Origin: Bacteroidetes bacterium MED-G13
GTDB lineage: Bacteria; Bacteroidota; Bacteroidia; Flavobacteriales; Flavobacteriaceae
Length of the DNA: 38,086 nucleotides
Direction of reading: 5' to 3'
NCBI GenBank assembly: GCA_002457735.1
Contig: NTKO01000011.1
Coordinates: forward strand, 1-38,086
Part shown: in pieces, positions 1,952 to 10,003 of the stretch
Layout of the letters: each line of letters starts with the position of its first letter
Numbering within the stretch: position 1 is the stretch's first letter
Notes under the pieces: model-generated
Seen by the model: only the letters and a program-made list of their open reading frames with translations
Databases searched by the model: none
What the model was told of the DNA's origin: nothing
Made by a program: the position numbers and the translations under genes

Positions 1952-2575
1952 ATGAACAAGTATATCACAGAATTTATAGGAACTTTTTTTCTAGTTTTAA
2001 TCATAGGTATTACAAATAATCCAATTGCAATCGGAATTGGTCTTTCGGTTCTAGTCTACATGGGTGCTCACATCTCTGGAGCTCACTATAATCCCGTGGT
2101 ATCATTGGCTATGTTTATTCAAAAAGAAATTAACAAATCGGAACTACTGTATTATATTATTTCACAGCTAACAGCATCTGTTGCTGCAACCTTTGCAATA
2201 CAAAATTTTGATATTAATTCATTTGAAGTTGTTGCAAATACGAGTAATAGAGCTTCTTTTCTTATGGCTGAAATACTTTTTACTTTTCTACTTGTTTTTG
2301 TAATATTAAATGTCGCATTGCACCCAAAACTAAAAAATAATCAATTTTATGGTTTTGCAATTGGTTTAACTGTAGCAGCTGGCGCTTTGACTGTTGGGAA
2401 TATTTCTGGAGCTGTATTTAATCCAGCTGTCAGTTTTGGACCCACATTTTTTGCAATATTAGATCCAAATGAGCTTTCATCAGCTGTACAGTCCAATGAC
2501 TTCTTTTTCTACTATTTAATTGCGACATTAATTGGCTCATTAATTGCTAGTTATCTCTTTAAAAGAGTGAATTAA
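1952..2575 (+). CDS. MIP-family channel (aquaporin-like) with altered filter residues
   Basis: A 207-residue inner-membrane channel with six hydrophobic segments and the two half-helix motifs of the major intrinsic protein family. The first is SGAHYNPVVS (NPV at residues 47-49 instead of NPA); the second is SGAVFNPAVSFGP (NPA at 157-159). The residue after the second NPA, which is arginine in classical water and glycerol channels and forms the ar/R selectivity filter, is valine here (V160). The pore is therefore likely wider or less polar than in AqpZ, and the substrate cannot be assumed to be water. It is the first gene of the eleven-gene operon, and its stop overlaps the next start (TAATG). 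Confidence 0.88.
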   Translation: MNKYITEFIGTFFLVLIIGITNNPIAIGIGLSVLVYMGAHISGAHYNPVVSLAMFIQKEINKSELLYYIISQLTASVAATFAIQNFDINSFEVVANTSNRASFLMAEILFTFLLVFVILNVALHPKLKNNQFYGFAIGLTVAAGALTVGNISGAVFNPAVSFGPTFFAILDPNELSSAVQSNDFFFYYLIATLIGSLIASYLFKRVN

Positions 2576-3198
2576 TGTTTTTTGATGAATACCAAATTGA
2601 AAAATTAGAAAAAATTTACAGGGTAAACCTAATGAATTCTTGTTCTGGTTACAAATCAGCAAATTTAATTGGAACAATTTCTAAAAATGGCCAATATAAT
2701 CTTGCAGTTTTTAGTTCGATTGTTCATTTAGGTTCTAATCCACCTCTTTTGGGATTTTTTCTTAGACCAACAGAAGTCGTTCCAAGACATACTTACCTTA
2801 ACATTAAGGAAAGGGAGTTTTACACGATAAATTCAGTTGATATATTGAATTTTGAAAAAGCGCACCACACATCTGCTAAATACCCCAGAGATATCAGTGA
2901 ATTTGATATCACAGGAATAAAGCCAAAAATTACCCATAATTTCCCAGCACCATTTGTTGATTCATCAAATATTAAAATTGGAATGAAGTTTGTAGAAGAG
3001 TTAAAAATCAAACATAACAGATCAAGGTTAATAGTTGGAAAAATAGTTAGTTTGGATGTAAAGGATGAAATGATAAACGATGATGGCTTTATAGACCTTT
3101 ATAAATCCCAAATAGCAACAATTAGCGGATGTGATGGTTATTCATTTCCTAAAAAAAATGAAAGAAAAGGTTACCAAAAGCCACGCAAAATCAAATAA
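2575..3198 (+). CDS. Flavin reductase-like (FMN-binding split barrel) protein
   Basis: 207 residues. The order of conserved segments fits the flavin reductase-like / flavoredoxin family: NSCSGYKSANLIGT near residue 21, then NLAVFSSIVHLGSNPPLLGFF (about 42-62), RHTYLNI, and an N-terminal-half barrel that binds FMN. Members reduce or carry flavin; a link to photolyase FAD supply or to flavin-dependent oxidation chemistry is inference from the neighbours only. The protein is cytoplasmic, with no signal peptide. It begins at the ATG that overlaps the channel gene stop, and its 3' end overlaps the DUF2256 gene by about 41 bases in another frame. Confidence 0.8.
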   Translation: MFFDEYQIEKLEKIYRVNLMNSCSGYKSANLIGTISKNGQYNLAVFSSIVHLGSNPPLLGFFLRPTEVVPRHTYLNIKEREFYTINSVDILNFEKAHHTSAKYPRDISEFDITGIKPKITHNFPAPFVDSSNIKIGMKFVEELKIKHNRSRLIVGKIVSLDVKDEMINDDGFIDLYKSQIATISGCDGYSFPKKNERKGYQKPRKIK

Positions 3199-3325
3199 AA
3201 GCTATTTACCGACAAAAGAATGTCCAGTTTGTAAACGTCCATTTACATGGAGAAAAAAATGGAAAAGAAATTGGGATTTTGTAATCTACTGTTCAAAAAA
3301 ATGTAAACAAATTGGAAGAGGTTAA
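3158..3325 (+). CDS. DUF2256 small zinc-ribbon-like protein
   Basis: About 55 residues from the ATG at 3158. An upstream ATG at 3131 is possible but would extend the overlap with the flavin reductase gene and add residues that family members lack. The sequence is diagnostic of DUF2256: a CPVC pair, then RPFTWRKKWKRNWD, then YCSKKC, giving four cysteines suited to zinc binding. The biochemical role is unknown. From memory, DUF2256 genes are repeatedly found next to photolyase/cryptochrome-family genes in marine bacteria, as here. Both ends overlap neighbours: about 41 bases with the gene before and 14 bases with the photolyase gene after. Confidence 0.85.
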   Translation: MKEKVTKSHAKSNKSYLPTKECPVCKRPFTWRKKWKRNWDFVIYCSKKCKQIGRG

Positions 3326-4790
3326 CATAATTTTACCTAATCAACTTTTTGAAAATAATCCACTTTTCAAATTAAACCTCCCAACCTTTCTCATAGAGGA
3401 AACTATTTTCTTTAAAGAATTCAATTTTCATAAACAAAAAATATTTTTCCACAGAATTGGCATGAAAAAATATGAAAAACATTGCAAAAAATTTTTGTCA
3501 GAAGTATTTTATTTAGAATCAAAAGACAAAAATGCAAATATTAGAGAATTAGTAATCTCACTAAAATTGAGTGGATTAAAAAAAATCAACCTAGTTCAAT
3601 TTGATGACAACTGGCTAAAAAAAAGATTAATTTCCGCCTCTGAGGGGATATCATTAAATTTCATTGAAACGCCACAATTTTTAAATACATTAGATCAAAA
3701 TAGTATTTTTTTTAAAAAAGATAAATCAAAATTTTTCCAAACAAGCTTCTATAAATCACAAAGAAAGAGACTCGATATTTTGATGACTAATAACAAACCC
3801 TGTGGTGGAAAATGGACATATGATGATGAAAACAGAAAAAAATATCCCGCAAAAAAAACTCCACCTGACATTAAGTTTCCAGCAATTAGTAATTCAAATT
3901 ATTATCATGATTCAGTTAAATATATTGATGATAATTTTAAAGATAATATTGGAAAGTTAAACGAAAATTTCACGTACCCCACAGATCATAACGAAGCAAA
4001 AATATGGTTTGAAAATTTTTTAAATGAAAGATTTCTTGAATTTGGAGATTATGAAGATGCTATTGTAAAAGAATCTTCCATATTAAATCACAGCTTAATA
4101 TCTCCTCTACTCAACTCAGGTTTATTAACACCTAAGTATGCAATCGAAAGAATTTTAACTTTTGCGGAGCAAAAAAATATACCTATTAATTCAAATGAAG
4201 GAATCATCAGACAAATTATAGGATGGAGAGAATTTATTAGAGGAATATACGTTGTAAAAGGTTCATATGAAAGAACACGAAATTTCTGGAATTTTAAAAA
4301 AGAAATGCCAAAATCATTCTACACTGGAAATACGGGAATTGATCCTGTTGATGATTGTATTAAGAAGCTACTAAATACTGGATATTTACATCATATTGAA
4401 AGGCTTATGGTGATCGGTAATTTTATGTTTTTATGTGAAATTAAGCCTGATGCTGTTTACAATTGGTTTATGGAATTATTTATTGATTCTTATGACTGGG
4501 TGATGGTACCAAATGTTTATGGAATGAGTCAGTATGCTGATGGTGGTTTAATGTCAACAAAACCTTACATAAGCAGCAGTAATTATATTATGAAAATGAG
4601 TAATTACAAAAAAGGGGATTGGCAACAAATATGGGATGCTCTCTATTGGAGATTTATTTCTAATAATACAGATTTTTTTAAGTCCAACCCCAGGTTGTCA
4701 ATGATGGTTATCACACTAAACAGAATGAATAAAGATAAACTAGACAACCACCATAAAATAGCAAATGATTTTTTAAATAATCTCAAATGA
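3312..4790 (+). CDS. Cryptochrome/photolyase-related protein (PhrB/FeS-BCP family), TTG start
   Basis: 492 residues of the DPRP/PF04244 family, which includes bacterial (6-4) photolyases such as PhrB. Diagnostic parts are NIILPNQLFENNPLF at the N-terminus, GWREFIRGIY, TGYLHHIERLMVIGNFM, MELFIDSYDWVMVPNVYGMSQ and GGLMSTKPYISSSNYI. The frame has a stop at 3282 and no ATG until about residue 50, so TTG at 3312 is the likely start; it keeps the first strand of the N-terminal domain. In PhrB the segment after KMS.Y carries CxxC and a further Cys for the 4Fe-4S cluster; here residues about 428-440 read MSNYKKGDWQQIW with no cysteine, so a cluster is unlikely. It presumably binds FAD and repairs UV photoproducts. 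Confidence 0.88.
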   Translation: MEEVNIILPNQLFENNPLFKLNLPTFLIEETIFFKEFNFHKQKIFFHRIGMKKYEKHCKKFLSEVFYLESKDKNANIRELVISLKLSGLKKINLVQFDDNWLKKRLISASEGISLNFIETPQFLNTLDQNSIFFKKDKSKFFQTSFYKSQRKRLDILMTNNKPCGGKWTYDDENRKKYPAKKTPPDIKFPAISNSNYYHDSVKYIDDNFKDNIGKLNENFTYPTDHNEAKIWFENFLNERFLEFGDYEDAIVKESSILNHSLISPLLNSGLLTPKYAIERILTFAEQKNIPINSNEGIIRQIIGWREFIRGIYVVKGSYERTRNFWNFKKEMPKSFYTGNTGIDPVDDCIKKLLNTGYLHHIERLMVIGNFMFLCEIKPDAVYNWFMELFIDSYDWVMVPNVYGMSQYADGGLMSTKPYISSSNYIMKMSNYKKGDWQQIWDALYWRFISNNTDFFKSNPRLSMMVITLNRMNKDKLDNHHKIANDFLNNLK

Positions 4791-5191
4791 TTTTTAATTC
4801 TACATACACTGACCCAGAAAAAGATCTTGAGGTTGATAAGATTATTGGAAAAAAATTTAATTTGATTGAATCAATTATTATGGGTGGAATAGGATCTAAA
4901 AGACTCATTTTAGACAGTTTCAGTGTAAAATTTGAAGATTATATTAAAGATGGCTTTGATTTAAATTATGTAAATATAGAACTCAGAAAAAAAGGAATTA
5001 AAGTTTTTATTACTAACAGGCAAAACCGAATTACCTGGGTTATTCCTTACTACAGACTGGTAATTTATAAAACCCCATTTTTTTCAATTCACTGTAACGG
5101 CAGTTTTCTAAAATTTAGCAACAAGCTAAACCACAAAGAAAATTTATCATTTTTTAGAAAGCTTGTTAAAATAAAATCTAATCAATTTTAA
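4787..5191 (+). CDS. Conserved-looking protein of unknown function in photolyase operon
   Basis: 134 residues, not recognised. The start overlaps the photolyase stop by four bases (ATGA), so translation is probably coupled. There is no signal peptide or membrane segment. The middle (about residues 45-110) alternates hydrophobic and charged residues as in a beta-rich fold, including ITWVIPYYRLVIYKTPFF; the C-terminus is basic. Placement between two genes of the photolyase-associated set suggests a role with them, but nothing in the sequence defines a chemistry. Base composition and lysine/asparagine-rich codon use match the neighbours, so there is no sign of recent transfer. Confidence 0.7.
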   Translation: MIFNSTYTDPEKDLEVDKIIGKKFNLIESIIMGGIGSKRLILDSFSVKFEDYIKDGFDLNYVNIELRKKGIKVFITNRQNRITWVIPYYRLVIYKTPFFSIHCNGSFLKFSNKLNHKENLSFFRKLVKIKSNQF

Positions 5192-5195
5192 ACAA

Positions 5196-5477
5196 ATGTT
5201 TAGAAAATTTAATGGCACAGATATTGATAGAATCATAGAAATGGCATGGGAAGATAGAACTACTTTTGATGCTATTTACAAAGACTTTGGATTAAGTGAA
5301 TCTAAGGTAATCCATTTGATGAGAATAAACCTAAAGCCGTCAAGTTTTAGGCTTTGGAGAAGAAGGGTTACTGGTAGAAAGACAAAACACTTAAAAAAAA
5401 GGGATTTTGCTGAAGGTAGATTTAAATGTAGCAGACAAAAGCACATTAGTTTAAATAAAATTAGTAAACGCAAATGA
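5196..5477 (+). CDS. TIGR03643/DUF2805 family protein
   Basis: 93 residues. The first 65 match the TIGR03643 (DUF2805) family, with pieces such as IDRIIEMAWEDRTTFDAI, FGLSESKVIHLMR and PSSFRLWRRRVTGRKTKH. The segment at about residues 24-44 has the look of a helix-turn-helix (alternating helix, GLSES turn, second helix), and the protein is strongly basic, so nucleic-acid binding is possible but unproven. From memory the family occurs next to DUF2256 and photolyase-related genes in many marine bacteria, matching this arrangement. It starts four bases after the preceding gene, and its stop overlaps the following start (ATGA). Confidence 0.82.
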   Translation: MFRKFNGTDIDRIIEMAWEDRTTFDAIYKDFGLSESKVIHLMRINLKPSSFRLWRRRVTGRKTKHLKKRDFAEGRFKCSRQKHISLNKISKRK

Positions 5478-5695
5478 AAATTATTGAAAAGGCAATTGAG
5501 TTTGAAAATAGAAAGCACACTTATAAAAGCACAAATGAAAAAATTGTTGCATCCAGAGAGGTTAAAAATCTCATTTTAGACTTAAACGAAGTTTATAAAA
5601 AAAATAAAGATTCTGAAATAATGGAAATGATGAAACGGCTTACTGCTATAAAGAGAAAAGTAGAAAAAAGATTAAAAGGTAGACCACAAGCTTAA
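5474..5695 (+). CDS. Small basic helical protein of unknown function
   Basis: 73 residues, not recognised. It is rich in lysine and glutamate, and two long helices are predicted by eye (about 2-15 and 28-66), the second ending in a very basic tail (KRKVEKRLKGRPQA). No cysteine, signal peptide or membrane segment is present. The start overlaps the preceding stop by four bases, and the stop abuts the next ATG without a gap, so it is almost certainly translated as part of the operon. It could be a nucleic-acid- or partner-binding accessory protein, but no function can be assigned. Confidence 0.65.
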   Translation: MKIIEKAIEFENRKHTYKSTNEKIVASREVKNLILDLNEVYKKNKDSEIMEMMKRLTAIKRKVEKRLKGRPQA

Positions 5696-6379
5696 ATGAA
5701 GAATATTGTAATAATTGGTGGTACTAAAGGAATTGGAAAAGCTATTGTAAATTCTCTTGTAACCAATAATAATATAACTTGTTTAAGCAGAAATAAATCT
5801 GATTTTTCTCATGACAACTACAGTCACATTAAATACAATTCTTTAGTAGATGAGTTGCCTGAAATTCAATCTGTTGATTGTTTGATATATTGTCCTGGCT
5901 CAATTAATTTAAAACCAATTACTAATTTAAGCATTGATGATTTTAGAGACGATTTTGAAATTAATGTTATCGGAGCCGTTAAGTGCATAAAAAAGTACTT
6001 ACCACAACTTAAAAGTGGTGATAAGCCATCTATATTGTTATTTAGTACGGTAGCCACCAAATTAGGTATGCCATATCACGCTTCTGTTTCTGTTGCAAAA
6101 TCTGGTATTGATGGACTTGTCAAAACCTTAGGAGCTGAATTGTCTCCAAAAATTAGAATTAATGCCATTGCTCCAACTATTACTGATACAGAATTGGCTT
6201 CAAAAATCTTAAGAAATGAAAAAGTTATTGAAAATTTGATTGAAAGACACCCACTAAAAAAAATATTATCTGCTGATGAAGTGTCAAAAATGGCAGAATT
6301 TTTAATATCTGATAAATCATCATCAATTTCAGGTCAAATTTTTAATATGGATGCAGGAATAGTTTCCTTCAAAAGTTAA
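5696..6379 (+). CDS. Short-chain dehydrogenase/reductase family protein, catalytic Tyr absent
   Basis: 227 residues with a classical SDR Rossmann fold: GGTKGIG at residues 8-14 binds NAD(P), then CLIYCPG, NVIGAVKC in mid-protein, and RINAIAP after the active-site region. In the active site, K135 is preceded by SVSVA, so the position of the YxxxK tyrosine (K minus 4) is V131; the only nearby tyrosine, Y127, is eight residues before the lysine. I recall related SDRs beside photolyase genes with a similar HASxxxAK arrangement, so this may be a subfamily trait rather than a defect. The reaction and substrate are unknown. The start abuts the preceding stop. Confidence 0.82.
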   Translation: MKNIVIIGGTKGIGKAIVNSLVTNNNITCLSRNKSDFSHDNYSHIKYNSLVDELPEIQSVDCLIYCPGSINLKPITNLSIDDFRDDFEINVIGAVKCIKKYLPQLKSGDKPSILLFSTVATKLGMPYHASVSVAKSGIDGLVKTLGAELSPKIRINAIAPTITDTELASKILRNEKVIENLIERHPLKKILSADEVSKMAEFLISDKSSSISGQIFNMDAGIVSFKS

Positions 6380-6383
6380 TTAT

Positions 6384-6947
6384 ATGGTAAAGATTGTTAG
6401 TATTTCGATGATTATGATTTTAACCTTCACAGGAATAAAGATGATTAATAGCCCTGAAAACAATTTTTCTGATATGAAATCTATTTATGAAATTCCCCTC
6501 AAAGATATTAAAGGGAATCCCCTTGATCTTAGTAAATTTAAGGGCAAATATATGTTGTTTGTAAACGTTGCTTCCAAATGTGGTTTTACAAAACAATACA
6601 AAGAATTACAGCAACTTTATGTTAATAATCAAGATAAAATAGTTGTCATTGGCGTGCCCTGTAACCAATTTGGCAATCAGGAACCGGGAAACGAAAAGCA
6701 GATATCTCTTTTTTGTTCTGAGAAATATAATGTTAGTTTTCCTTTGACAGAAAAAATAAAAGTCAGAGGTTCTGATAAGCACATGCTTTACACATGGCTA
6801 ACCTCCAAAGAGTTGAATGGAAGTAAAAACTCAAGTGTGAAATGGAATTTTCAAAAGTACTTGGTAAGCCCTGAGGGAAATTTAGTCGATTATTGGTATT
6901 CTCTAACTAATCCCTCCAGCTCTAAAATTACCAATTATCTAAGATGA
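6384..6947 (+). CDS. Glutathione peroxidase-family thiol peroxidase, exported
   Basis: 187 residues. An N-terminal hydrophobic segment (about residues 3-20) points to export or membrane anchoring, so it likely acts in the periplasm. The catalytic set is complete: C66 in NVASKCGFT, Q99 in NQFGNQEPG, and W154-N155 in WNFQKYL. C111 in ISLFCSEKYNVSFP sits where thioredoxin-dependent members carry the resolving cysteine, so the reductant is more likely a thioredoxin-type protein than glutathione. It reduces hydrogen peroxide or lipid hydroperoxides, which fits a photo-oxidative stress operon. The stop overlaps the next start (ATGA). Confidence 0.9.
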   Translation: MVKIVSISMIMILTFTGIKMINSPENNFSDMKSIYEIPLKDIKGNPLDLSKFKGKYMLFVNVASKCGFTKQYKELQQLYVNNQDKIVVIGVPCNQFGNQEPGNEKQISLFCSEKYNVSFPLTEKIKVRGSDKHMLYTWLTSKELNGSKNSSVKWNFQKYLVSPEGNLVDYWYSLTNPSSSKITNYLR

Positions 6948-7408
6948 AAATTTATTCTTTAAACAGGTCTATTAATATTCCTGTAACTAAATTAGAAGCT
7001 TGGAATTTCTTCAGTAATCCTTATAATCTTTCTGTAATTACACCAAAATCTATGAATTTTAAGGTTTTACAAGTAGACTCAGATAAAATTTACGATGGCC
7101 AGCATATACACTATAAAGTTTCTCCCCTATTTGGAATCAATTTGAAATGGACCTCACTTATTTCAGAGGTGGTCGAACAAAAATGTTTTACTGACACCCA
7201 GGTAAATGGTCCTTATAAATATTGGCATCACAAACATATTTTTAAAAAAATTAGTGGAGGTATTAAGATTATAGATGAAATTCACTACTCACTCCCATTT
7301 GGTCTTATTGGTAGTATTTTCCATCCAATTTTAGTTAAAAACAAACTTGACCACATTTTTAGATACAGAAATTCAAGAATTAAAGAAATATTTGGGGAAA
7401 TAAAATGA
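6944..7408 (+). CDS. SRPBCC-family (polyketide cyclase/ligand-binding-like) protein
   Basis: 154 residues with the START/SRPBCC signature: an N-terminal strand (SLNRSINIPVTKLEAWNFFS), NPYNLSVITPKSMNFKVL, then W-containing strands (GINLKWTSLISEV, GPYKYWHHKHIF) and a C-terminal helix. Such proteins form a hydrophobic cavity for lipids or small ligands. In many bacteria they lie next to CPD photolyase genes, as here. The ligand is unknown. The gene overlaps both neighbours by four bases (ATGA at each end). No signal peptide is seen. Confidence 0.8.
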   Translation: MKIYSLNRSINIPVTKLEAWNFFSNPYNLSVITPKSMNFKVLQVDSDKIYDGQHIHYKVSPLFGINLKWTSLISEVVEQKCFTDTQVNGPYKYWHHKHIFKKISGGIKIIDEIHYSLPFGLIGSIFHPILVKNKLDHIFRYRNSRIKEIFGEIK

Positions 7409-8694
7409 AAACCTTTTCAATTTTTTGGTTTAGAAGAGACATTAGAATAAAAGATAATATTGGATTATCTGAAGCTACAAAATCTAAATACCCTGTTATA
7501 CCAATATTCATTTTTGATGAAAAAATAACCGAAAATTTACCCAAAAATGACTCGAGAATTAATTTTATTCACAAAAATTTAAGAAAATTGAACAATTTAC
7601 TTGTCGAAAAATTTAATTCTAAACTTCAGGTATTTAAAGGAAATCCCATTGAAATAATTGATAAAATAGTAAAAGAGTATAATGTTAAAGAGGTTTATAC
7701 CAATCATGACTATGAGCCATATGCTATTAAAAGGGATAATTTTATTTATAATAATTTAAAAAGTAAAAAAATACCTTTCTACACTTTTAAAGATCAAGTT
7801 ATTTTTGAAAAAAATGAAGTACTTAAAGACAATGGATCTCCATATGTGGTTTTTACTCCTTACATGCGCAAATGGAAACAGAACCTCAAGAAAAATTATT
7901 CAGTTCTAGAGAATAACGAATTGTGCAATAATTTTCATAATCTAGATAAATACAATCTCAAAGAAATTAGTGAATATGGTTTTGAGAAGAACATTTCAGA
8001 AGTAATTAATTTTGATGTTTCGAAAAAAATAATTGAAGAGTACGAAAAAAAGAGAAATTTCCCGTCGCTAAATTCAACTTCTAAAATTGGCCCTTTCCTT
8101 AGGTTTGGAGTAATTAGTATTAGATCTCTTGTTAAATATGTTTTAAAATTCAGTAACGAAACATTTTTAAATGAACTTATTTGGAGAGAATTTTTTATGC
8201 AAATTCTTTTTCATTTCCCAAAAAGCTCAAAAAGTAGCTTTAAATCGAAGTATGATAATATAAAATGGGTCAATGATATAAAGATGTTTGAAGCATGGAA
8301 AAATGGTAAAACTGGTTTTCCAATTGTTGATGCTGGTATGAATGAGTTAAATAAAACTGGGTTCATGCATAATAGAGTCCGAATGATAACTTCTAGTTTT
8401 CTTTGCAAACAACTACTTATTGATTGGAGGTGGGGTGAAAAATATTTTGCATTAAAACTTAATGATTATGAAATGTCAAGTAATGTTGGAAACTGGCAAT
8501 GGGCATCTGGATCAGGGGTAGATGCTGCTCCTTATTTTAGAATTTTTAATCCTTATACCCAGATTGAAAAATTTGATAAAAACTATGATTACATTAACAA
8601 TTGGATAGACCTAAATAATAAATATCCTAAGGAAATTGTTAATCATAAACAAGCAAGAGAGAATTGTCTAAAAACGTATAAGATGTATGTCTAA
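7405..8694 (+). CDS. phrB: Class I cryptochrome/deoxyribodipyrimidine photolyase
   Basis: 429 residues with the class I photolyase plan: an N-terminal alpha/beta antenna domain starting at FWFRRDIRIKDN (about residues 7-18), and a C-terminal FAD domain with SKIGPFLRFGVIS, ELIWREFFMQIL, TGFPIVDAGMNEL and a region near residues 360-385 (NVGNWQWASGSGVDAAPYFR) that matches the FAD/electron-transfer core of E. coli photolyase. It most likely repairs cyclobutane pyrimidine dimers with blue light, although a cryptochrome role cannot be excluded. It is the last gene of the operon, and its stop lies one base from the convergent murA stop with no terminator hairpin visible. Confidence 0.88.
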   Translation: MKTFSIFWFRRDIRIKDNIGLSEATKSKYPVIPIFIFDEKITENLPKNDSRINFIHKNLRKLNNLLVEKFNSKLQVFKGNPIEIIDKIVKEYNVKEVYTNHDYEPYAIKRDNFIYNNLKSKKIPFYTFKDQVIFEKNEVLKDNGSPYVVFTPYMRKWKQNLKKNYSVLENNELCNNFHNLDKYNLKEISEYGFEKNISEVINFDVSKKIIEEYEKKRNFPSLNSTSKIGPFLRFGVISIRSLVKYVLKFSNETFLNELIWREFFMQILFHFPKSSKSSFKSKYDNIKWVNDIKMFEAWKNGKTGFPIVDAGMNELNKTGFMHNRVRMITSSFLCKQLLIDWRWGEKYFALKLNDYEMSSNVGNWQWASGSGVDAAPYFRIFNPYTQIEKFDKNYDYINNWIDLNNKYPKEIVNHKQARENCLKTYKMYV

Positions 8695-8695
8695 G

Positions 8696-10003
8696 TTAAA
8701 CTCTATCAATTTTTGCACCCAAAGCTTTTAGTCTTTCATCAATATTTTCATACCCCCTATCTATCTGCTCAATATTATGTATAATGGATTCACCTTTTGC
8801 AGATAAAGCAGCTATTAATAAAGAAATCCCAGCACGAATATCTGGAGAACTCATGACAGTACCCTTAAGAGTAGATTTAAAGTCATGTCCGATAACTGTA
8901 GCACGATGAGGATCACATAAAATAATTTTTGCACCCATATCAATTAATTTATCTACAAAAAAGAGTCTACTTTCAAACATCTTTTGATGAATCAATAAAC
9001 TTCCTCTCGCTTGGGTTGCAATAACCAATAATATGCTTAACAGATCGGGACTTAGACCAGGCCAAGGCGCATCTGAAATAGTAAGAACTGATCCATCAAT
9101 ATAATTTTTGATTTCATAACCATTCTCATGTTCATTAATCAAAAGATCATCATTTTCTTTAATTAAATTAATACCAAGTGATTTAAATGCATTAGGAATA
9201 ATACCAAGGTTTTCCCAGCTTACATTTTTTATTCTTATACTACTTTTGGTCATAGCTGCAAGTCCTATCCAACTACCAATTTCAATCATATCTGGAAGAA
9301 CCTTGTGATTTGCACCTCCCAGAGAATCAACACCATTAATTTTTAATAGATTAGAACCTAAACCAGATATTTTTGCACCCATAGAGATCAAAAGTTTACA
9401 AAGTTGTTGAATATATGGTTCACACGCAGCATTATAAATTGTTGTTTCACCTTTTGCAAGGGATGCAGCCATAATAATATTTGCCGTACCTGTAACAGAA
9501 GCCTCCTCCATCAAAATATAAGTTCCAACTAATTTTTTAGCTTTTACAGAATAAAAGCGACTTTCTTTATCATATGTGAAATGAGCGCCTAACTTAATTA
9601 ACCCACCAAAGTGAGTATCAAGCCTCCTTCTTCCAATTTTATCTCCACCTGGTCTTGGAATGCTAGCAATTCCAAATCTAGCTAGCAGTGGGCCAACAAT
9701 CATAATTGATCCTCTTATACTTTTGCCATCTGTCTTAAATTTTTCAGAACTTAAGGATTTTAAATTAATTTGTTCAGCTTTAAAGCTGTATTTATTAGGA
9801 TTAATTTTATTTACTTTAACACCAATTGATGAAAGAAGATTGATTAACTTATTAACATCTATAATTTCAGGAATATTACTTACAACTACCTCTTCAGATG
9901 TTAAAAGAGTAGCACATATAATTTGAAGAGCTTCATTTTTAGCTCCTTGAGGAACAACATCACCATTTAATTTGCTACCACCTTGTATTCTAAAAGTTTG
10001 CAC
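8696..10003 (-). CDS. murA: UDP-N-acetylglucosamine 1-carboxyvinyltransferase, Asp in place of active-site Cys
   Basis: 435 residues. It catalyses the first committed step of peptidoglycan synthesis: enolpyruvyl transfer from phosphoenolpyruvate to UDP-GlcNAc in the cytoplasm. The family marks are K22-N23 in GAKNEAL, RPGGDKIGRRRLDTHFGG (about residues 117-134), PGLSPDLLSIL and RAGISLLIAALSAKGES near the C-terminus. The residue matching Cys115 of E. coli MurA, the target of fosfomycin, is aspartate (D121). Asp at this site is known to keep MurA active but fosfomycin-insensitive. The gene follows DUF4290 at 11 bases and is probably co-transcribed with it. Confidence 0.95.
   Translation of the reverse strand: MQTFRIQGGSKLNGDVVPQGAKNEALQIICATLLTSEEVVVSNIPEIIDVNKLINLLSSIGVKVNKINPNKYSFKAEQINLKSLSSEKFKTDGKSIRGSIMIVGPLLARFGIASIPRPGGDKIGRRRLDTHFGGLIKLGAHFTYDKESRFYSVKAKKLVGTYILMEEASVTGTANIIMAASLAKGETTIYNAACEPYIQQLCKLLISMGAKISGLGSNLLKINGVDSLGGANHKVLPDMIEIGSWIGLAAMTKSSIRIKNVSWENLGIIPNAFKSLGINLIKENDDLLINEHENGYEIKNYIDGSVLTISDAPWPGLSPDLLSILLVIATQARGSLLIHQKMFESRLFFVDKLIDMGAKIILCDPHRATVIGHDFKSTLKGTVMSSPDIRAGISLLIAALSAKGESIIHNIEQIDRGYENIDERLKALGAKIDRV

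Follow-up and report, generated by a model that had tools for sequence, protein, structure and literature searches.

An eleven-gene cluster with two photolyases in a flavobacterial genome, and two PF04244 photolyase lineages that alternate in one of its slots

Studying a contig of Bacteroidetes bacterium MED-G13 (Flavobacteriaceae; NTKO01000011.1, positions 1 to 38,086, the whole stretch analysed and here called the window) reveals a run of eleven genes on the plus strand (1952-8694), which encode two photolyases of different families together with redox enzymes, a channel and several small proteins. The source genome comprises 1.06 Mb in 32 contigs, is 82% complete and comes from a bacterium of probably marine origin. 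A check of the open reading frames (ORFs) confirmed all coordinates and thereby the claim of an earlier, sequence-only reading of the window (the original prediction) that eleven same-strand genes follow each other at spacings of -41 to +4 bases.

The first gene encodes a MIP channel of the aquaporin family (1952-2575; PF00230, 107.6 bits, cut-off 25) and overlaps by one base the gene of a flavin reductase-like protein (2575-3198; PF01613, 55.2 bits, cut-off 27). It is followed by a small four-cysteine protein, DUF2256 (PF10013, 68.9 bits, cut-off 25), which ends at 3325 and begins either at ATG 3158, giving a gap of -41 to the flavin reductase gene, or at GTG 3131, the start of the longest ORF, giving -68. 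A PF04244 photolyase with a TTG start comes next (3312-4790; gap -14; 150.6 bits, cut-off 22.1), then a protein of 134 amino acids (aa) (4787-5191; gap -4), then DUF2805, the same family as TIGR03643 (5196-5477; gap +4; TIGR03643 120.7 bits, cut-off 66.55; PF10985 120.3 bits, cut-off 22.5), and then a basic protein of 73 aa (5474-5695; gap -4). The second half consists of a short-chain dehydrogenase/reductase (SDR; 5696-6379; gap 0; PF13561, 121.6 bits), a protein of the glutathione peroxidase (GPx) family (6384-6947; gap +4; PF00255, 129.4 bits, cut-off 27), a possible SRPBCC-like protein (6944-7408; gap -4) and a class I-like photolyase of the cyclobutane pyrimidine dimer (CPD) type (7405-8694; gap -4). 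The labels which the original prediction had given to the MIP channel, the flavin reductase-like protein, DUF2256 and TIGR03643 all hold at the cut-offs of the models, and so does the PF04244 family of the first photolyase. For the last gene the class is our reading of two NCBIfam matches which both stay under their cut-offs (TIGR03556, 338.7 bits; PRK10674, 307.5 bits). The supposed thiol peroxidase, in contrast, had to be renamed: a plain thiol peroxidase is ruled out by the PF00255 match. Of the SRPBCC label only a possible likeness could be kept, because no Pfam match reaches its cut-off.

The SDR had been called atypical, rightly so. In all 15 aligned rows S117, H128, S130 and K135 are invariant and there is no tyrosine four residues before K135, so that the classical YxxxK motif is absent; the catalytic tyrosine of a solved SDR aligns with a valine position of the window protein. 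Therefore a non-classical reaction is likely.

Promoter-like sites (46, against a mean of 40.0 and a standard deviation of 6.3 in shuffled sequence) and terminator-like sites (3, against 2.6 and 1.8) are at chance level on both strands between 1800 and 8900. This agrees with the earlier statement that no internal promoter or terminator can be supported, although the promoter scan relied on a sigma-70 consensus which may not suit Bacteroidota. The window's genus is represented by 21 incomplete genomes, of which 16 contain DUF2805, and the eleven genes stand in identical order in every genus-mate locus fetched (14 of the 15 DUF2805 loci besides the window's own; G200 is a fragment). Four of these 14 loci are probably the same sequences as L062-L065, the closest named loci, which derive from uncultured Bacteroidetes isolates of the AG-461 and AG-333 series and group beside the window in trees of the companion genes.

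We also compared named loci, the best 80 of 589 DUF2805 loci found, a choice which biases the sample towards kin of the window; contig ends truncate some of them. Counted up to 9 kb from DUF2805, these loci contain the SDR (48), a class I photolyase (42), DUF2256 (41), PF04244 (40), the SRPBCC-like protein (40), the 134-aa protein (34), an ABC1 kinase (34), the flavin reductase (31), the 73-aa protein (31), FolE (31), a second photolyase (31), a TetR-like regulator (30), GPx (29), TspO (29), an NmrA-like/DUF2867 protein (28), a DASH cryptochrome (28) and a 58-aa protein (24). The MIP gene is found in just 8 of the 80 loci and is therefore a variable member. DUF2256 or a photolyase accompanies DUF2805 in 59 loci, neither of them in 21. 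The fullest view is given by Hyunsoonleella jejuensis (L088), where TetR, ABC1, flavin reductase, NmrA-like/DUF2867, DUF2256, DASH cryptochrome, PF04244, another photolyase and the 134-aa gene precede DUF2805, and FolE, two 73-aa genes, SDR, GPx, the 58-aa gene, TspO, the SRPBCC-like gene and a class I photolyase follow it. The window operon is thus a trimmed version of a larger flavobacterial cluster with a MIP gene added in front; in named Flavobacteriaceae the TetR-like regulator, ABC1 kinase, DASH cryptochrome, additional photolyase, FolE and TspO genes are interspersed among the shared ones.

The PF04244 protein of the window aligns with solved enzymes but has none of the four cysteines that bind the iron-sulfur (Fe-S) cluster, and so does not belong to the FeS-BCP subtype. 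When 39 loci are aligned with the window, all four cysteines are found in 20 of the 40 rows and none in the other 20, and in the photolyase tree one long branch (SH-aLRT 100) separates these two sets. Each locus showed one form alone. Nevertheless both occupy the same slot, between the DUF2256 or cryptochrome gene on one side and the second photolyase or 134-aa gene on the other, in the 28 named loci which hold PF04244, the 134-aa gene, DUF2805 and the SDR, with the exception of L076 and L082, whose upstream side is cut. Even single genera are split: Polaribacter porphyrae (L077) has the Fe-S-free form and three further Polaribacter loci (L087, L094, L122) the Fe-S form, while in Winogradskyella three loci (L071, L112, L129) are Fe-S-free and one (L090) is not. 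Mapped on a tree built from seven companion proteins, the two forms require at least five changes (29 rows; four of these are forced by starred branches), or at least four once L076 and two gene-poor loci, L095 and L096, are left out (26 rows), and a single Fe-S-free clade is rejected there (difference in log-likelihood 648, approximately unbiased test p 1.2e-5). The companion trees assume a shared history of the concatenated genes, and all trees result from quick searches. The photolyase fragment of L082 (below 400 aa) is not part of the alignment and the photolyase tree; in the companion analyses it counts as Fe-S, its cysteines being confirmed. The cysteine-free C-terminal stretch is also found in 13 of the 14 genus-mates, the pattern being unmatched in L257.

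Thus two deep PF04244 lineages alternate in one operon slot. Most simply, one form has replaced the other in place, although an ancestor that had both genes, followed by loss of one or the other, could give the same picture. The sites which we equate by motif with His366, Leu370, Trp390, Met410, Tyr424 and Tyr430 of PhrB, itself absent from the alignment, are conserved in all 40 rows; roles for His366, Tyr424 and Tyr430 have been described, and Trp342 is given as an electron-transfer residue (PMC4619345). The Trp342 site carries tyrosine in the window and in 18 of the 20 Fe-S-free rows, and tryptophan in all 20 Fe-S rows. At the site equated with Tyr460, which cysteine-free relatives are reported to lack as well (PMC4619345), the window has tyrosine and 15 of the 20 Fe-S-free rows phenylalanine. 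Prokaryotic (6-4) photolyases without the Fe-S cluster, known as subgroup M with PromaPL, likewise miss the four cysteines (PMC9178010, PMC9426592); alternation of both forms in one operon slot was not found in the available parts of that literature. The function of the photolyase Fe-S cluster has been termed unknown (PMC12082625); the alternation beside constant neighbours offers a natural experiment on what the cluster contributes.

According to the original prediction DUF2256, TIGR03643, an SDR and PF04244 photolyase occur together in marine bacteria. Of a sample of 198 genomes of Bacteroidota, among them that of the window, 56 contain DUF2805, 64 contain DUF2256 (63 of them with a match over cut-off) and 65 contain PF04244. 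Joint presence amounts to 49 genomes for DUF2805 and DUF2256 (Fisher p 2e-25), 48 for DUF2805 and PF04244 (4e-23) and 58 for DUF2256 and PF04244 (6e-35), where the p values are optimistic because related genomes are treated as independent. These families co-occur far above chance, even where they are unlinked. Within 10 kb of each other lie DUF2805 and DUF2256 in 18 of 49 genomes, DUF2805 and PF04244 in 10 of 48, and DUF2256 and PF04244 in 27 of 58, the latter always on the same strand and in 15 cases at most 160 bases apart. DUF2805 is linked at this distance to DUF2256 or PF04244 in 19 of 56 genomes spanning 13 genera, and DUF2256 to DUF2805 or PF04244 in 36 of 64. The 134-aa family was detected in eight genomes and is linked in five (a ninth match has stops), the 73-aa family in five genomes and linked in three. 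The linkage is therefore real but partial; contig breaks depress the linkage counts. The expectation that neighbourhoods would tie the small genes to the photolyases is thus borne out for part of the genomes, but DUF2805 mostly lies elsewhere.

Some of these genes also lie together beyond the phylum. In a plasmid sample (seven regions viewed out of 43, 133 and 3 records with matches, in overlapping sets and with incomplete gene tables), TIGR03643, DUF2256 and a cryptochrome/photolyase gene are adjacent on a plasmid of Acinetobacter sp. WY4 (L237), with nudC, lipocalin, desaturase, FAD oxidoreductase, DUF1365 and CFA-synthase genes as neighbours. The presence of nudC stands beside the report of a rare fusion of DUF2805 with NADH pyrophosphatase (PMC6856373). 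A Spirosoma plasmid (Bacteroidota) carries a related SDR without operon-type neighbours.

What are the small proteins? In the available text of the literature naming them, apart from papers that use only the name PF10013, no published function for DUF2256 or DUF2805 was found: DUF2256 has been termed frequent (PMC11796252) and placed in the Pfam TRASH metal-binding clan (PMC4047054), and DUF2805 was grouped with translation domains by its abundance in marine metagenomes (PMC3597751). Being widespread and tied to PF04244 photolyases by co-occurrence and gene order, both families now become testable. The AlphaFold2 model of DUF2805 is all helical (pLDDT 76.7) and its fold matches are weak, with helix-turn-helix (HTH) proteins including LsrR, sigma factors and TrpR at Z of about 5 at best. 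There was no Foldseek match at E<=0.001 and no credible solved relative by sequence (best E 0.96). Most likely DUF2805 is a small DNA-binding HTH protein. In 40 of the 80 loci it lies on the same strand as the SDR gene and less than 2 kb from it, also in three loci that contain neither photolyase nor DUF2256 (L070, L074, L093).

The two proteins which could not be named before indeed match no family over cut-off, the 134-aa protein none in Pfam or NCBIfam even at E<=1. Its model (mean pLDDT 89.4) is rich in strands, with a C-terminal helix closing the fold, and resembles mostly PH, PTB and FERM domains (VIA, Z up to 10.1, root-mean-square deviation 3.4 over 117 residues). The best Foldseek match has E 0.015, and the best sequence match to a solved structure, with E 0.84, is not credible. 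We take a predicted PH-like binding module to be the most likely identity. The 73-aa protein has 19 invariant columns in an alignment of 16 rows and occurs in tandem copies in some relatives. Membership in a defence system was considered as well and rejected, as five operon proteins gave no PADLOC match at E<=0.01.

DUF2805 relatives were also found in 79 IMG/VR contigs (L142-L220), near-identical contigs included. A terminase match was obtained in 15 of 22 viral records searched (68-380 kb; 14 over cut-off), which may be fragments. A gene of the Flavodoxin_2 family (PF02525) is present in 38 of the 79 viral loci and adjoins DUF2805 at -3 to +2 bases in 18 of them; in the 80 bacterial loci no row with this phage-type partner appeared at E<=1e-3. 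In 50,697 records of cultivated phages the window's DUF2805 protein found no tblastn match at E<=1e-3. L149 carries DUF2256 and PF04244 beside DUF2805, and L148 the SDR, but either may be bacterial. The occurrence of DUF2805 in large phages is a starting point for finding phage genes connected with light or damage to DNA.

Taken together, we regard it as probable, at roughly three chances in four, that the eleven genes make up a single transcription unit which serves survival in sunlight and is a reduced version of a flavobacterial cluster for photoreactivation and photo-oxidative stress. The genes would be transcribed together and induced by light or UV. The class I-like photolyase would reverse cyclobutane dimers and the PF04244 enzyme probably 6-4 photoproducts, while the GPx-family protein would remove peroxides and the flavin reductase and SDR would act as redox enzymes on an undefined substrate. 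Small DNA-binding or scaffold proteins, in contact with DNA or a photolyase, may assist this co-expressed repair and detoxification.

Clusters against light damage are a kind already known, and we make no claim that this one is unpublished. A photolyase-related proximity cluster is enriched in proteorhodopsin-bearing Flavobacteriia (PMC5932025) and likewise groups photolyase with photolyase-related genes in marine members of this class; the available parts of that paper name no small members. A rhodopsin (PF01036) was not matched in our 82% complete genome, nor did the controls give a match. In Pseudomonas phrB, cryB, folE and ufaM are light-inducible, and the LitR regulon is similar in holding the photolyase PhrB, the cryptochrome-like CryB and FolE, with an SDR in the pmlR1 region (PMC9758184). 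In contrast to it, the eleven genes include neither MerR/LitR nor a furan fatty acid synthase, and the available parts of that paper name no DUF2805 or DUF2256. Singlet oxygen induces GPx, CryB and two hypothetical proteins in Rhodobacter capsulatus; in the rpoE-chrR response these lie in one operon, with PhrB, FolE2 and TspO in the wider response (PMC7074977), whereas no sigma factor or ChrR is found among the eleven genes. A related response to light or singlet oxygen is described from Vibrio (PMC5241685). What did not turn up in the literature compared is the operon in its trimmed form, a slot in which two photolyase lineages alternate, and DUF2805 in phages.

Several observations weigh against this reading. 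DUF2805 has neither DUF2256 nor PF04244 within 10 kb in 37 of its 56 genomes, to which contig breaks contribute, and within the sample the 134-aa and 73-aa proteins are confined to the window's family (bar one broken match) and incompletely linked. None of the 22 viral DUF2805 records searched has a photolyase FAD domain, so that DUF2805 seems to have a role for which no photolyase is needed. The SRPBCC-like protein reaches only E 0.2 with its best Pfam match (PF03364), and its homologue in L088 matches nothing at E<=0.001. There is no regulator gene among the eleven. Finally, the lesion is disputed, since the Fe-S-free type is termed a 6-4 photolyase in PMC9178010 whereas PMC9426592 suggests that the picocyanobacterial form acts on CPDs. 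The single module of the original prediction thus survives in the co-occurrence, the partial linkage and the 59 loci with DUF2256 or a photolyase, but it is not exclusive.

A bolder version of the sunlight reading is possible, though we hold it to be distinctly less probable. Here the operon would be a platform with an Fe-S or Fe-S-free photolyase, swapped in place perhaps with iron supply, and a fixed core of DUF2256, the PH-like protein, DUF2805, the 73-aa protein and the non-tyrosine SDR that would give an undescribed DNA-bound function in damage or light; a DNA-binding DUF2805 would also have been acquired by large phages, often coupled to a flavodoxin-fold oxidoreductase gene.

DUF2805 might instead be the operon's own regulator, dependent on light or damage, as its helical model, the weak HTH matches and the frequent pairing with the SDR would allow. 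We consider this unlikely, because local regulators are not usually so constant in sequence (14 Bacteroidota rows share 54-67% identity with the window) and no fold match reaches Foldseek E<=0.001. Still less likely, genome streamlining and general stress housekeeping could have brought the genes together, with DUF2805, the PH-like protein and the SDR as unrelated riders in a constitutive operon. The many genomes with unlinked DUF2805, the variable MIP gene and the phage copies speak for such riders, as do one Vibrio and one Nostoc plasmid whose gene tables, incomplete as they are, show neither a photolyase nor DUF2256 up to 9 kb from DUF2805. However, the set recurs in named Flavobacteriaceae with extra genes interspersed, and DUF2805, DUF2256 and PF04244 keep company even when unlinked.

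About as improbable is a dedicated role of DUF2256 and DUF2805 in the maturation or cofactor supply of the PF04244 photolyase. The tight same-strand pairing of DUF2256 with PF04244 fits this idea, and yet both small proteins stay beside Fe-S and Fe-S-free enzymes alike, the viral records searched lack the photolyase, and in Salinivibrio DUF2256 adjoins an annotated deoxyribodipyrimidine photolyase, while in Salipiger and Thioclava none is annotated within 8 kb of it (incomplete tables). The alternation beside unchanged neighbours further implies that none of them serves the Fe-S cluster specifically: partner genes in general are unlikely Fe-S assembly factors, and the small proteins, present beside Fe-S-free enzymes too, were rejected as Fe-S maturation factors.

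Upstream of the operon a divergent DUF2911 gene (1049-1903) starts 48 bases before the first gene. These 48 bases (1904-1951) are the presumed promoter gap by position only; no promoter motif can be called within them as the sequence is too AT-rich, and an AT-rich stretch precedes the first gene in the genus-mates too. Downstream lies a convergent PF00275 gene (8696-10003), presumably murA; its end and that of the last operon gene are one base apart (8694-8696), with no terminator-like site between.

On the Acinetobacter sp. WY4 plasmid, which is typed as mobilizable, TIGR03643, DUF2256 and photolyase have lipid-modification genes as neighbours; on other Acinetobacter plasmids, too, the TIGR03643 and DUF2256 matches are about 36 bases apart. 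In Thioclava (L242:7986-8782) DUF2256 adjoins a gene for an SOS response-associated peptidase. In Croceivirga (L113, 9384-10279) and in one Maribacter locus (L131, 3974-5021) DUF2805 closely follows a PF13532 2OG-Fe(II) oxygenase gene, an arrangement not seen in another Maribacter locus (L127); the oxygenase family includes AlkB, which likewise repairs by direct reversal. Nine genomes of one related genus (G021, G025, G057, G068, G084, G142, G154, G170, G174) have a second, divergent paralogue of DUF2805 (69-84 bits), which is the sole DUF2805 copy in G021, G025 and G170.

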